A DNA stretch of 36,883 nucleotides from positions 1-36,883 of the forward strand of contig JAIPBJ010000022.1 of NCBI GenBank assembly GCA_021739625.1. The letters are read 5' to 3'. Origin of the DNA: Flavobacteriales bacterium (GTDB taxonomy: Bacteria; Bacteroidota; Bacteroidia; UBA10329). The translations under genes and the position numbers were made by a program. Of this stretch, positions 5,850 through 36,263 are shown piece after piece. The notes beneath the pieces are model-generated. The model saw only the letters and a program-made list of their open reading frames with translations, searched no databases and was not told the DNA's origin. Every line of letters starts with the position of its first letter. The stretch's first letter is position 1.

Positions 5850-6824
5850 GTGCAACGCATCCTTATCGTCCGTTTCAGTTCCATTGGTGATATCGTGCTC
5901 ACCTCGCCCGTGATGCGCGCCCTGCGTGCCCGGTTCCCTGATGCGGACATCCGCTTTTTGACCAAGCGGGCCTACGCGGAGCTGGTGCAGCCCAATCCAT
6001 ACTTGAACAACATTTTCCTGTTCGATGGCAAACTGCGCGATACCATTGACGAGGTGCGCGCCTTTCGACCTGATGTGATCATCGATTTGCACCACAATCT
6101 TCGCACTGCCATACTGAAGGCAGCTGTGGGCTGCAAAGCGTATTCGTTTCCAAAGCTGAATCTGGAGAAGTGGCTGCATGTCAAGCTGAGGCTGGACACC
6201 TTGCCCGACCTCCATATCGTTGACCGCTATTTCACTTCGGTGGAGACATTGGGCGTGGTGAATGATGGGCAGGGATTGGATTTCTTTATCCGAGAGGATG
6301 TGAAGCTTCCGCAACTTCCAGCCGTGTTCTCAGAGGGATATGTGGCCGTGGTGGTGGGTGCCAAATTCGCCACCAAGCGCATTCCGGAGGAAAAACTCAC
6401 AACCATCATTAAAGGTCTGAAGCGACCTGTGGTGCTGGTCGGAGGGCCAGAGGATGCGGAAGTGGGAGAGCGGTTGGCGAACAGTGAACAAGTGTTCAAC
6501 GCCTGCGGCCGCACCTCACTTCAAGAATCTGCGCGGATAATTGAAAGGGCGACCGTGGTCATCACCCCCGACACTGGCATGATGCACATCGCGGCAGCAT
6601 ACGACCGTCCGACCATCTCTATTTGGGGAAACACCGTCCCGGCATTCGGCATGACGCCCTACATGCCACAGCACCCAGAACAGTCACACCTCATCGAACA
6701 GAAAGGTCTTTCCTGCCGCCCGTGCAGTAAGATCGGATTCGGGAAATGTCCGAAGAAACATTTCGACTGCATGATGCTTCTGGACACAGGCACCGTCATT
6801 TCCATCGCTCACAGATATATTTGA
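5850..6824 (+). CDS. Glycosyltransferase family 9, LPS heptosyltransferase-like
   Basis: 324 residues from a GTG start. GT9 enzymes transfer heptose from ADP-heptose to the LPS inner core at the cytoplasmic face of the inner membrane. Seen: the N-terminal RFSSIGDIVLTSPVMRAL motif that defines the family, DVIIDLHHNLRT, the donor-site segment VLVGGPEDAEVGERL, and TPDTGMMHIAAAYDRPTISIWG, the C-terminal signature. A C-terminal GFGKCPKKHFDCM Cys segment is also present. HldE, which makes the activated heptose, is encoded at 28.8-30.2 kb, so the organism plausibly uses ADP-heptose. A DoxX gene follows after 3 nt. Acceptor position cannot be predicted. Confidence 0.92.
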   Translation: MQRILIVRFSSIGDIVLTSPVMRALRARFPDADIRFLTKRAYAELVQPNPYLNNIFLFDGKLRDTIDEVRAFRPDVIIDLHHNLRTAILKAAVGCKAYSFPKLNLEKWLHVKLRLDTLPDLHIVDRYFTSVETLGVVNDGQGLDFFIREDVKLPQLPAVFSEGYVAVVVGAKFATKRIPEEKLTTIIKGLKRPVVLVGGPEDAEVGERLANSEQVFNACGRTSLQESARIIERATVVITPDTGMMHIAAAYDRPTISIWGNTVPAFGMTPYMPQHPEQSHLIEQKGLSCRPCSKIGFGKCPKKHFDCMMLLDTGTVISIAHRYI

Positions 6825-31576: not shown

Positions 31577-31996
31577 TCAAATATTCTCGGTCTCTGGAGG
31601 ATTGTGGATGTTTATCACCCGCTTTGATCTCACGCCTTCATATCCGAAGTTGATGATGATACCGAGCTTCTTCTCACCCCAGACCAGATACTTCAGTACC
31701 TGATCTATATTGGCTTTGGAAAAGTGATTCGCCTTCTTGAGTTCTACAACAACCTTGTCCTCCACAAGAAAATCCATATAGCCTTTGCCGATGATCTCAC
31801 CTTCAAACTTCAATGGATAATAATCCTGCTCCTTGAAGGCAATATCTCTCTTCCGCAACGCTATCGCAAATGCCTTTTGATAAACCGCTTCTGGATGACC
31901 CCCACCAAGTTGGCCATGGACATCAAAAGCACACCCGATCAGCTCATAGCTGAGTTCAGGATACAGTAGGTCATCCCGCTTGATTATTCCGGCCAT
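31577..31996 (-). CDS. GxxExxY-family protein (PD-(D/E)XK nuclease-like fold)
   Basis: 139 residues. The family is named after the motif seen here as GHPEAVYQKAF (G-x-x-E-x-x-Y). Further family blocks: ELIGCAFDVHGQLG, an LKFEGEIIGKGYMDFLVEDKVVVELKK core in which Asp and E-x-K sit like a PD-(D/E)XK site, LKYLVWGEKKLGIIINFG and the terminal KRVINIHNP. Its biochemical role is not established, and a nuclease-like fold is an inference from the motif spacing. It is inserted between cysD and cysN, which are normally adjacent, and is flanked by inverted copies of a dispersed repeat, so it is probably a later insertion with no role in sulfate activation. Confidence 0.92.
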   Translation of the reverse strand: MAGIIKRDDLLYPELSYELIGCAFDVHGQLGGGHPEAVYQKAFAIALRKRDIAFKEQDYYPLKFEGEIIGKGYMDFLVEDKVVVELKKANHFSKANIDQVLKYLVWGEKKLGIIINFGYEGVRSKRVINIHNPPETENI

Positions 31997-33854: not shown

Positions 33855-34832
33855 ATGGCACGTATTCTCACCGGCATCCAGAGTTCGGGCAGGCAGCATC
33901 TCGGCAACATCCTTGGGGCGATCCGCCCGGCCATAGCGTTGGCGAACGACCCGAAGAATGAGTCGTTCCTGTTCATTGCAGACCTGCATTCGCTGACCAC
34001 CATCAAAGACAGTACACAGCGCAGACAGAATGTGCTGGCCACCGCTGCGGCCTGGCTGGCGTGCGGGTTGGACACCGACCGCACGGTCTTCTACCGCCAG
34101 TCTGACATCCCAGAGGTGTGCGAAATGACCTGGTATCTCAGCTGTTTCGCGCCTTTTCCAATGCTGACCAATGCGCACAGTTTCAAGGACAAGCAGGAGC
34201 ATCTGGCCGATGTGAATGCGGGACTGTTCACCTATCCTGTGCTGATGGCGTGCGACATTCTGATGTATGATGCCGAGATCGTGCCTGTGGGCAAGGATCA
34301 GAAGCAGCATCTGGAAATGACACGCGACATGGCCCGCTCGGTGAATCATCATTTCGACAGAGAACTTTTTGTCATTCCCGAATCGAGGATCAGTGAAGAA
34401 GTAATGGTGATTCCCGGAACGGACGGACGCAAGATGAGCAAGTCGTATGGCAATGTCATTGATGTGTTCCTTCCCGAAAAAGAGCTGCGAAAACAGGTGA
34501 TGGCGATTGTGACCGACAGCACTCCGCTGGAAGACCCCAAGAATCCGGAAACCTGCAATGTATTTGCGCTCTACCGTCTTTTGGGCGATGAAATGCAGGT
34601 GCAGGAGATGCGCAACAGATACCTGACCGGAGGCTTCGGTTATGGACACGCGAAGCAGGCGCTTTTTGAGGTCATCATGGACGGGTTTGCGGAGGAACGT
34701 GGGCGTTTCATTGAATTGATGGAAAACCCTGACCGGATCGAGCAATTGCTGAAACAGGGCGCAGAGAAGGCCCGGCCCACGGCATACGCTACATTGGAGC
34801 GGCTGCGCGAGGCCTTGGGCTACGGCAGGTGA
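33855..34832 (+). CDS. trpS: Tryptophanyl-tRNA synthetase
   Basis: 325 residues from ATG 33855. The open frame extends 65 codons upstream, but that part overlaps cysC and the promoter and is unlike the family. Class I synthetase. The HIGH-like motif appears as SSGRQHLGNILGAI near the N-terminus, and the KMSKS motif is present as RKMSKSYGN. YPVLMACDILMYDAEIVPVGKDQKQHLEMTRD is the Trp-site region. The usual small bacterial TrpRS length. Its stop region overlaps the convergent membrane-protein gene by 13 nt. Confidence 0.97.
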   Translation: MARILTGIQSSGRQHLGNILGAIRPAIALANDPKNESFLFIADLHSLTTIKDSTQRRQNVLATAAAWLACGLDTDRTVFYRQSDIPEVCEMTWYLSCFAPFPMLTNAHSFKDKQEHLADVNAGLFTYPVLMACDILMYDAEIVPVGKDQKQHLEMTRDMARSVNHHFDRELFVIPESRISEEVMVIPGTDGRKMSKSYGNVIDVFLPEKELRKQVMAIVTDSTPLEDPKNPETCNVFALYRLLGDEMQVQEMRNRYLTGGFGYGHAKQALFEVIMDGFAEERGRFIELMENPDRIEQLLKQGAEKARPTAYATLERLREALGYGR

Positions 34833-35779
34833 CCGAGGAGCACTGCCGCAATGAGGGCCAGCACCAACAGGTCGGCCCACCACCATCTTACCGCCCGTTC
34901 AATTAGAACAGAGACTGTTATGGCCAATGGGAATGCTGCCCAGGCCGGGGCAGCTGTGAGACCGACAGGCAAGAACAAGGCCATGACCACAGCCACAATG
35001 ATCAACGAGAGCATCACCAACATCCCGTTCCTCGTCTGCACAGCGCCCGAAGCAATGTCCTGAAGCATTGTGGGCAGGGCGAGGCCCAACAGCACGAGCA
35101 TCACCACATGGCCCACATGTGGCTGCGGTCCAGAGACACTCAACACCCAAGCAGACAGAAGTGTCGTTCTGAGCGCTTCAAAGGGAACCGGCCGCCAAAC
35201 AAGGACAAGCATTACAAATACAAGTAGCATCATCAGACCCATGAAGGGCATGAGCCATTCGCGCCAAGCACCGGGCCTGAGGATGAAAATGCTGAACAGC
35301 ACGACCGCCAACATGAGCACGCTCGGACCATGGAAGAGGACGGCAACTCCTGTCAACATGCCCACATGGAACAGGGAGGTCAGCACGGAATCCTTCCTAT
35401 AGGTGGAGAGAATGAGCACCACAATAAGTTGAGAGATGAGCGCACCCACCAGAATATCCGGTCGCAAGAGGGCATGTCCGTAGAGTAGTCCGATGCACAC
35501 CGTTGCCAGCACGGGCATCCATCCCTTGGTGGACAGCAGCCGGAAACGGATTCCAGCCTCGCGTGTGACGAATCCGGACAGCAGCAACATCGTTCCACAG
35601 GCCATTTGGGTAACGATAGGGCTTCGACTGCACCAGCCGAAGGCCCAATGCATCGACAGGCTGTCGGCCACCATGGCGCTACCTTCCGCAGTTGCCTGTA
35701 ACAGGATCAGCACAATAGATGCCGTGCCTGTCAAAAGCAGGGAAAGCAATCCATGGTCCTTGAGTATCCGGGCGAGCAT
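34820..35779 (-). CDS. Polytopic membrane protein, possibly DUF6427-like
   Basis: 319 residues, about ten hydrophobic helices through the whole length, no signal peptide. It contains the segment IFILRPGAWREWLMPFMGL, which I associate with a Bacteroidota-specific family of unknown function (DUF6427). No catalytic or transport motif is visible. The N-terminus ARILKDHGLLSLLL begins 5 nt after a CATCTTTG box on the minus strand (35785-35792), again a very short leader. The 3' end overlaps trpS by 13 nt in convergent orientation, so both transcripts would be antisense to each other there. The assignment to DUF6427 is tentative. Confidence 0.8.
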   Translation of the reverse strand: MLARILKDHGLLSLLLTGTASIVLILLQATAEGSAMVADSLSMHWAFGWCSRSPIVTQMACGTMLLLSGFVTREAGIRFRLLSTKGWMPVLATVCIGLLYGHALLRPDILVGALISQLIVVLILSTYRKDSVLTSLFHVGMLTGVAVLFHGPSVLMLAVVLFSIFILRPGAWREWLMPFMGLMMLLVFVMLVLVWRPVPFEALRTTLLSAWVLSVSGPQPHVGHVVMLVLLGLALPTMLQDIASGAVQTRNGMLVMLSLIIVAVVMALFLPVGLTAAPAWAAFPLAITVSVLIERAVRWWWADLLVLALIAAVLLGHLP

Positions 35780-35792: not shown

Positions 35793-35941
35793 CCACAGGT
35801 TTCGACTTGCTGGATGAACCGTGGCCCAAGTCAGGACAGACGATGATAAGAACTGCCGCGTCCTTCAACCGGACATCCAGCATGTCGGTTTTGCTCAACA
35901 ATCTGTGCAAATAGACCGGGGACGGTCCCAGGAACAGGAGA
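35793..35941. other. Gene-free intergenic DNA left of the 21-bp array
   Basis: No gene is supported. The only structure noted is GGGGACGGTCCC (35919-35930), a near-palindrome of a kind often found between genes. The full gene-free gap runs from 35780 to 36293. Confidence 0.5.
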
Positions 35942-35942
35942 T

Positions 35943-36138
35943 TTCATGTGAAACACGAGAAAGCTCATGAACAATGCAAGAAACCTCATGAAGAATGGAA
36001 GAATACTCATGAGCTGTTCATGTAAATTCATGAACGTCTTCACCATCAATCATGAAGAATACAAGAATACTCATGAAGAACACAAGGAAGCTCATGAAGA
36101 ATACAAGGAAACTCATGTAGAATACAGGGAAACTCATG
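35943..36138. repeat. 21-bp tandem array with CATG every two helical turns
   Basis: Units resemble CTCATGAAGAATACAAGGAAA. CATG starts at 35945, 35966, 35987, 36008, 36019, 36029, 36051, 36072, 36093, 36114 and 36135, giving steps of 21, 21, 21, 11, 10, 22, 21, 21, 21 and 21. Three or four units on the left and four on the right flank a degenerate 43-bp centre that contains two further CATG sites at half-step spacing. The array is intergenic, between divergent genes. It can be translated as seven-residue repeats (HEEYKET on the plus strand, FMSFLVF on the minus strand), but the 43-bp centre breaks any single frame, so it is more likely non-coding. Confidence 0.85.
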
Positions 36139-36263
36139 CATTCACGATCGTCTGGACGGGGACCATCGGGCGGGCGAGACAAAGACCGGGATAGACCCTG
36201 CCGGGTTCGAGAGGCAGACGATGGAAGCATTCAGCGATGGATGGCTATCTGCCATAACAGCCG
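36139..36263. other. Gene-free intergenic DNA right of the 21-bp array
   Basis: No gene is supported between the array and the promoter box of the ABC ATPase. The short frames crossing it have no family signal. Confidence 0.4.

Follow-up and report, generated by a model that had tools for sequence, protein, structure and literature searches.

We found that arrays of 21-bp units stand upstream of genes for small, putatively DNA-binding proteins in a Flavobacteriales bacterium and its relatives, and that one such array, near the end of the 36,883-nucleotide stretch of DNA analysed here (the window), has a sister copy upstream of one of these genes elsewhere in the same genome. Judging from the sequences, we propose that the arrays are putative binding platforms for the small proteins of the adjacent genes, and that the array in the window is an orphan platform for the protein encoded beside the sister copy on contig C164; we estimate the probability of this reading at about two in three. 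The repeat class itself is already known; its linkage to small putative DNA-binding genes was not found described in the literature searched, which leaves out most subscription papers.

Subirana and Messeguer described in 2021 a class of bacterial tandem repeats that are constant in size, at 20-21 nt, and variable in sequence (PMC8161180). These constant-size repeats have a length of two helical turns and carry short conserved signals in each species, and their function is not known (PMC8161180). The authors propose a polymerising protein or small RNAs, and they discuss transcription of the repeats; the species they name include Bacillus weihaiensis and B. simplex, whose genomes are rich in 21-nt repeats (PMC8161180). 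The arrays studied here resemble these repeats in their constant unit of about 21 nt, in a unit sequence that differs from locus to locus, in being non-coding, in forming families within a species, and in having a short signal in each unit, which is TCATG in the regular units of the array in the window. They differ from them in two respects: no partner gene is named for the published repeats, whereas the present arrays are linked to genes for small, putatively DNA-binding proteins, and a half-step centre kept in two copies is a feature of the present case.

The features around the array are listed in Table 1. The eleven CATG sites of the array start at positions 35945, 35966, 35987, 36008, 36019, 36029, 36051, 36072, 36093, 36114, and 36135. 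The resulting spacings of 21, 21, 21, 11, 10, 22, 21, 21, 21, and 21 bp are exactly those given by the first-pass annotation, and they recur in the C164 copy. A 21-bp array was called by TRF at 35958-36138, and the self-match of the array at a lag of 21 has a z of 11.1. The array is also the densest CATG cluster of the window, with 11 sites in 200 bp (the runner-up has 6; the average over the window is 5.04 per kb).

Table 1. Array in the window, its flanks, and its neighbouring genes (positions in the window)
Feature	Position	Strand	Basis or remark
319-aa membrane protein gene, weakly DUF6427-like	34820..35779	-	Neighbour of the array
Left flank resembling the C164 copy (TTTGCTCAA ... CAGGAACAnGAG)	35890..35942		Alignment, sequence
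21-bp-unit array (consensus TCATGAAGAATACAAGGAAAC) with eleven CATG sites	35943..36138		Sequence, TRF, second copy
Half-step centre of the array	36008..36050		CATG at 36008, 36019, 36029, then 36051 (11, 10, 22 bp)
Right flank, weakly like the C164 copy (ACGnTCGTCT)	36139..36154		Alignment
ATPase gene of a peptide ABC transporter, truncated at the contig end	36294..36883	+	Neighbour, outside the element

A search of the bacterium's own genome gave one relative of the array (G000:C164:6676-6870). The two copies are identical at 155 of 195 bases, with zero indels. The C164 copy has the same spacing, including the half-step centre (CATG at 6740, 6751, 6761, and 6783), and the eleventh CATG is the only site that has decayed there. 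The spacing is identical between the two copies, in which about 20% of the bases have changed. Mismatches between the copies fall on 2 of the 44 CATG positions and on 38 of the 151 other positions (Fisher p=0.0024), and TCATG is invariant throughout the 14 regular units of the two copies. Permutation over the unit positions gave p=0.00055 for the uneven placing of the changes; for a run of five consecutive phases free of changes, p was 0.003. These statistics on the placing of substitutions rest on one pair of copies and have modest numbers. The sparing of the CATG sites, together with the absence of indels, argues against free decay of the array. The similarity between the copies extends into the flanks, over about 50 bp on the left side and some 15 bp on the right, and the counterpart of the left flank in the C164 copy is the stretch from the array to the start codon of a small gene, which we call gene B.

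A DNA search of 58 relatives with the array matched the own genome only. A search based on spacing only (TCATG at 11, 10, and 22 bp) in the GTDB contigs and IMG/VR gave 5 and 2 matches, respectively, all of which are unrelated; several of them are 10-11-bp CATG series of other sequence. Two viral contigs from IMG/VR with similar flanks (L055 832-879 and L056 14043-14090) carry an 11-bp array (TCATGACTAGG/TCATGACCTAG) in which CATG sites lie one turn apart, and a Methanimicrococcus sequence (L054 6355-6402) carries a long TTTTCATG series with sites at 10, 11, and 22-23 bp.

Gene B (81 aa) starts 63 bp downstream of the C164 array. Searches against Pfam, NCBIfam, PHROGs, and PDB gave no match above the cutoff; the best hints, both below the cutoff, were helix-turn-helix (HTH) families (PF19575, E=0.013; PHROG 4629, E=0.24). 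The gene has paralogues in its own genome and relatives in the genus. A class-wide search of 395 genomes detected B in 33 genomes from 9 genera, and no B was found in viral contigs, phages, or plasmids, or in a sample of 394 further genomes of the phylum. All the short forms of B for which enough upstream sequence was available (46/46) have an array with a 21-bp period within 600 bp upstream. Within the genus, a 21-bp array was observed within about 400 bp upstream at 14 of 14 loci, a count that excludes three B loci without an array that stand at contig ends. In the rest of the class, 23 B loci were read; arrays were present at 12/12 short forms (z 5.7-12.5) and at 0/11 long forms. After this rule had been stated, 20 more short-form loci were fetched as a later check, and all of them have an array (20/20), with a period of 21 bp at 19 loci and 42 bp at one. 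As controls, arrays were detected in 0.8% of random 600-bp stretches, in 7/665 regions upstream of long ORFs, and in 1/63 regions upstream of small coding ORFs. The long homologues without an array (L183, L184, L186-L190, L193-L195, and L197) have about 170-209 aa and an extra conserved C-terminal domain that ends in HIVIENxKTYIPL, and in nearly all cases there is one per genome.

At C164 and its kin, the order of the elements is gene A, often a terminator, the 21-bp array, and gene B. Gene A (about 165 aa, helical) precedes the array on the same strand in many loci, including those of other families of the class; it has no match in viral contigs and nothing significant in PDB. A PADLOC search of A and B also gave nothing significant, and neither protein could be matched to a family. 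A terminator lies between gene A and the array at 13 of the 46 loci, compared with 2% in controls, which assigns the array to the 5' side of B. The -7 box of Bacteroidota was found between the array and B at 10/46 loci, compared with 4.8 expected, an excess that is too weak to use. The similarity of the array units tracks the identity of the B proteins (Mantel rho 0.265, p=0.0006; opposite-strand control, p=0.26). For B pairs with 60-80% identity, the unit similarity is above the 99% null in 65% of the pairs, and for those below 40% identity, in 1-2%. As unit identity is not clearly above the identity at third codon positions, part of this co-variation is due to common inheritance of the cassette.

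The arrangement is common to a second, unrelated family of small proteins. Orphan arrays led us to families F (fn3) and G (a helical part plus CarboxypepD_reg), both of which mostly have upstream arrays; the arrays are thus not confined to a single gene. Several of the G arrays are adjoined by small Cro/C1-type HTH proteins that match PF13443 above the cutoff (E 8.5e-8 and 2e-7). For the HTH_26 subfamily A9, which is of this Cro/C1 type, an array was present upstream at 13/13 loci in the genus; 7 of these 13 are G loci, the type of locus that led to the discovery of the family, and the other 6 are independent and also positive. The array peaks at these loci lie 120-320 bp ahead of the start. 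With this result beside that for B, the same layout is seen in two unrelated small-protein families, one of which is a recognised DNA-binding family. At one F-family locus (L245 near 138, genome G002), the period is 20 bp rather than 21 bp (z 13.5). In the window itself, a member of family G lies at the contig start (289-1125, + strand; CarboxypepD_reg, Pfam E 7.9e-8). Its relatives mostly have an upstream 21-bp array, and here such an array would fall off the contig; the region before the gene (15-193) contains short tandem repeats of 9 and 16 bp (GGGACGATT and TGAATCGGAGACGCGA).

We also examined 21-bp arrays as a class. A profile search of 118 genomes gave many weak matches, among which other 21-bp arrays were the useful ones. 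In the genus, further 21-bp arrays were detected with patterns and profiles; the unit sequence is particular to each array, and the stacked units of 14 arrays differ from one another. In the sampled stretches, non-coding tandem arrays mostly have a period of 21 bp or its multiples, with a few at 7/14, 22/36, and 100 bp. The autocorrelation over the arrays peaks at exactly 21, 42, and 63. Lags 10, 11, 31, 32, 52, and 53 are the highest among the non-multiples of 21; this is one statistic and the arrays differ, so it was not used as evidence. About 20 arrays, targeted loci included, were counted in 652 kb of sampled stretches of the own genome, compared with about 12 B genes genome-wide, and the majority of these arrays have no B neighbour. 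Such orphan arrays mostly fail to match B-linked arrays beyond the null; among ten own-genome orphans compared, the array in the window was the one that matched a B-linked array (that of C164) beyond the null. On account of this match, we regard it as an orphan platform that may be used in trans by the C164 B protein. In a Bacteroidales contig without a B gene, the 21-bp array (L052 106-252) clearly shows a substructure of 10/11 bp. In genome G004, a recently duplicated pair of arrays with their flanks (L080 3391-3624 and L084 3285-3523) has eleven units in each array, and the inner units differ.

Based on these observations, the small protein would bind one short motif per unit (TCATG in this case), always on the same face of the DNA, and its copies would be arranged in a row on one side of the helix, unit by unit, each unit corresponding to two helical turns. 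Where the array lies by its own gene, this binding may lead to autoregulation of the small protein; at orphan arrays such as that of the window, the same nucleoprotein filament would form at a second chromosomal site. The half-step centre retains sites at 11 and 21 bp, which is compatible with binding on one face. The first-pass annotation had suggested a platform for a protein that needs helical phasing. The phased layout is supported by the spacing without indels, the sparing of CATG, and the position of the sister copy upstream of an array-linked gene, and binding is made plausible by them rather than proven. Physical binding, cooperativity, autoregulation, and the role of the complex are all what we infer from sequence comparison.

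Other explanations of the array were also considered. A neutral minisatellite, in which a 21-bp tandem duplication was copied once and has been decaying without function, would account for units that are tandem and degenerate, and for a genome with many arrays of differing units, most of which have no special neighbour. However, unit number and spacing are kept in both copies despite 40 substitutions, with zero indels; the substitutions avoid TCATG; the period is fixed at 21 with no spread of sizes; and the linkage to two small-gene families is constant. We consider this origin quite unlikely. It is unlikely, too, that the array functions as RNA, either in the leader of the B transcript or as a small RNA, with some resemblance to the repeat RNAs of type III toxin-antitoxin systems. 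Such a role would fit the single orientation in which the array precedes B, the folding of the strand in the B orientation, which is better than that of shuffled sequences (z -3.04), and the discussion of repeat transcription by Subirana and Messeguer (PMC8161180). Yet compensatory pairs number 0 among 41 predicted, with 40 substitutions and in a comparison of two sequences only; there is no Rfam family at gathering strength; and the CATG core is a DNA palindrome, which is able to explain the folding. Moreover, the other linked family consists of Cro/C1 HTH proteins, and no B gene lies downstream of the window copy. Type III toxin-antitoxin systems likewise have a repeat array directly ahead of a small gene, but the present arrays differ from them in the 21-bp unit, the absence of an Rfam match and of covariation, and the lack of a toxin family detectable by sequence.

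A role of the array in replication or partition, whether of the chromosome or of an integrated plasmid (through iterons, parS, or DnaA boxes), appears very unlikely, even though tandem repeats of about 21 bp ahead of a small gene form an iteron-like layout. One genome contains many different arrays, and B has neither a Rep-type domain nor a plasmid or phage match. The first-pass annotation had called the platform iteron- or operator-like and had pointed to possible dnaA/parS-like positions; the iteron part was not upheld, as no Rep family was found for B in Pfam, PHROGs, or NCBIfam and no match to plasmids was obtained. As for the latter positions, a single parS-like site (13/16) is present and is not conserved in the C164 copy, an equally good site with 3 mismatches occurred in 15/100 shuffles, and there is no DnaA-box cluster at the array. 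Compared with plasmid iterons and their Rep proteins, the C164 locus and all the B loci are similar in having tandem two-turn repeats in front of the gene for the protein presumed to bind them, and they differ in the missing Rep domain and plasmid match, in the many arrays per genome, and in a window copy without the gene. The chance that the array encodes a peptide is practically nil. The period of 21 bp would correspond to seven codons of a repetitive peptide, and HEEYKET-like heptads are readable in one frame. However, the centre shifts the frame, as the first-pass annotation had correctly noted, and stops are present in all six frames of both copies, so a coding heptad repeat was ruled out for the array in the window.

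The binding-platform reading can be compared with two other known systems. Cro/C1-type operators are similar in that the second linked family is a Cro/C1-type HTH with repeats ahead of its own gene. Unlike these operators, which are two or three in number, each array has about ten phased sites, and gene B at C164 belongs to a different family that is weakly HTH-like. The REP/RAYT system shares the linkage of a gene to repeat DNA and the presence of orphan repeat copies elsewhere, but B is of the order of 80 aa and has no transposase match, and the repeats here are tandem arrays.

In a wider form, which we offer tentatively as having slightly less than even odds, the 21-bp arrays would be the DNA half of a modular two-part system, the other half being a small HTH protein from one of several unrelated families. 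Each array would consist of about ten two-turn-phased sites coated as a one-sided filament, orphan arrays would be further docking sites, and the proteins of A, F, and G would be accessory. The linkage to B and Cro/C1 proteins, together with the co-variation, names candidate partners for repeats that have been called enigmatic (PMC8161180). If the arrays are indeed coated by these proteins, phased nucleoprotein structures would be built on bacterial chromosomes by an undescribed route, and the arrays and the proteins that read them would evolve in pairs.

With regard to the surroundings of the array, the first-pass annotation had placed the putative platform between two divergent genes. A special tie to these genes was not supported: arrays occupy divergent, convergent, and co-directional intergenic regions alike, and the window copy has no small gene, neither gene A nor gene B adjoining it. 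Both neighbouring genes are of ordinary kinds. In five relatives, the region upstream of the DUF6427-like gene has no array and a different neighbour gene. As this gene is conserved in the genus without an adjoining array, we regard it as lying outside the element. Elsewhere in the window, a GxxExxY-type gene (31577-31996, - strand; PF13366 PDDEXK_3, E 1.4e-29) is inserted between cysN- and cysD-like genes.
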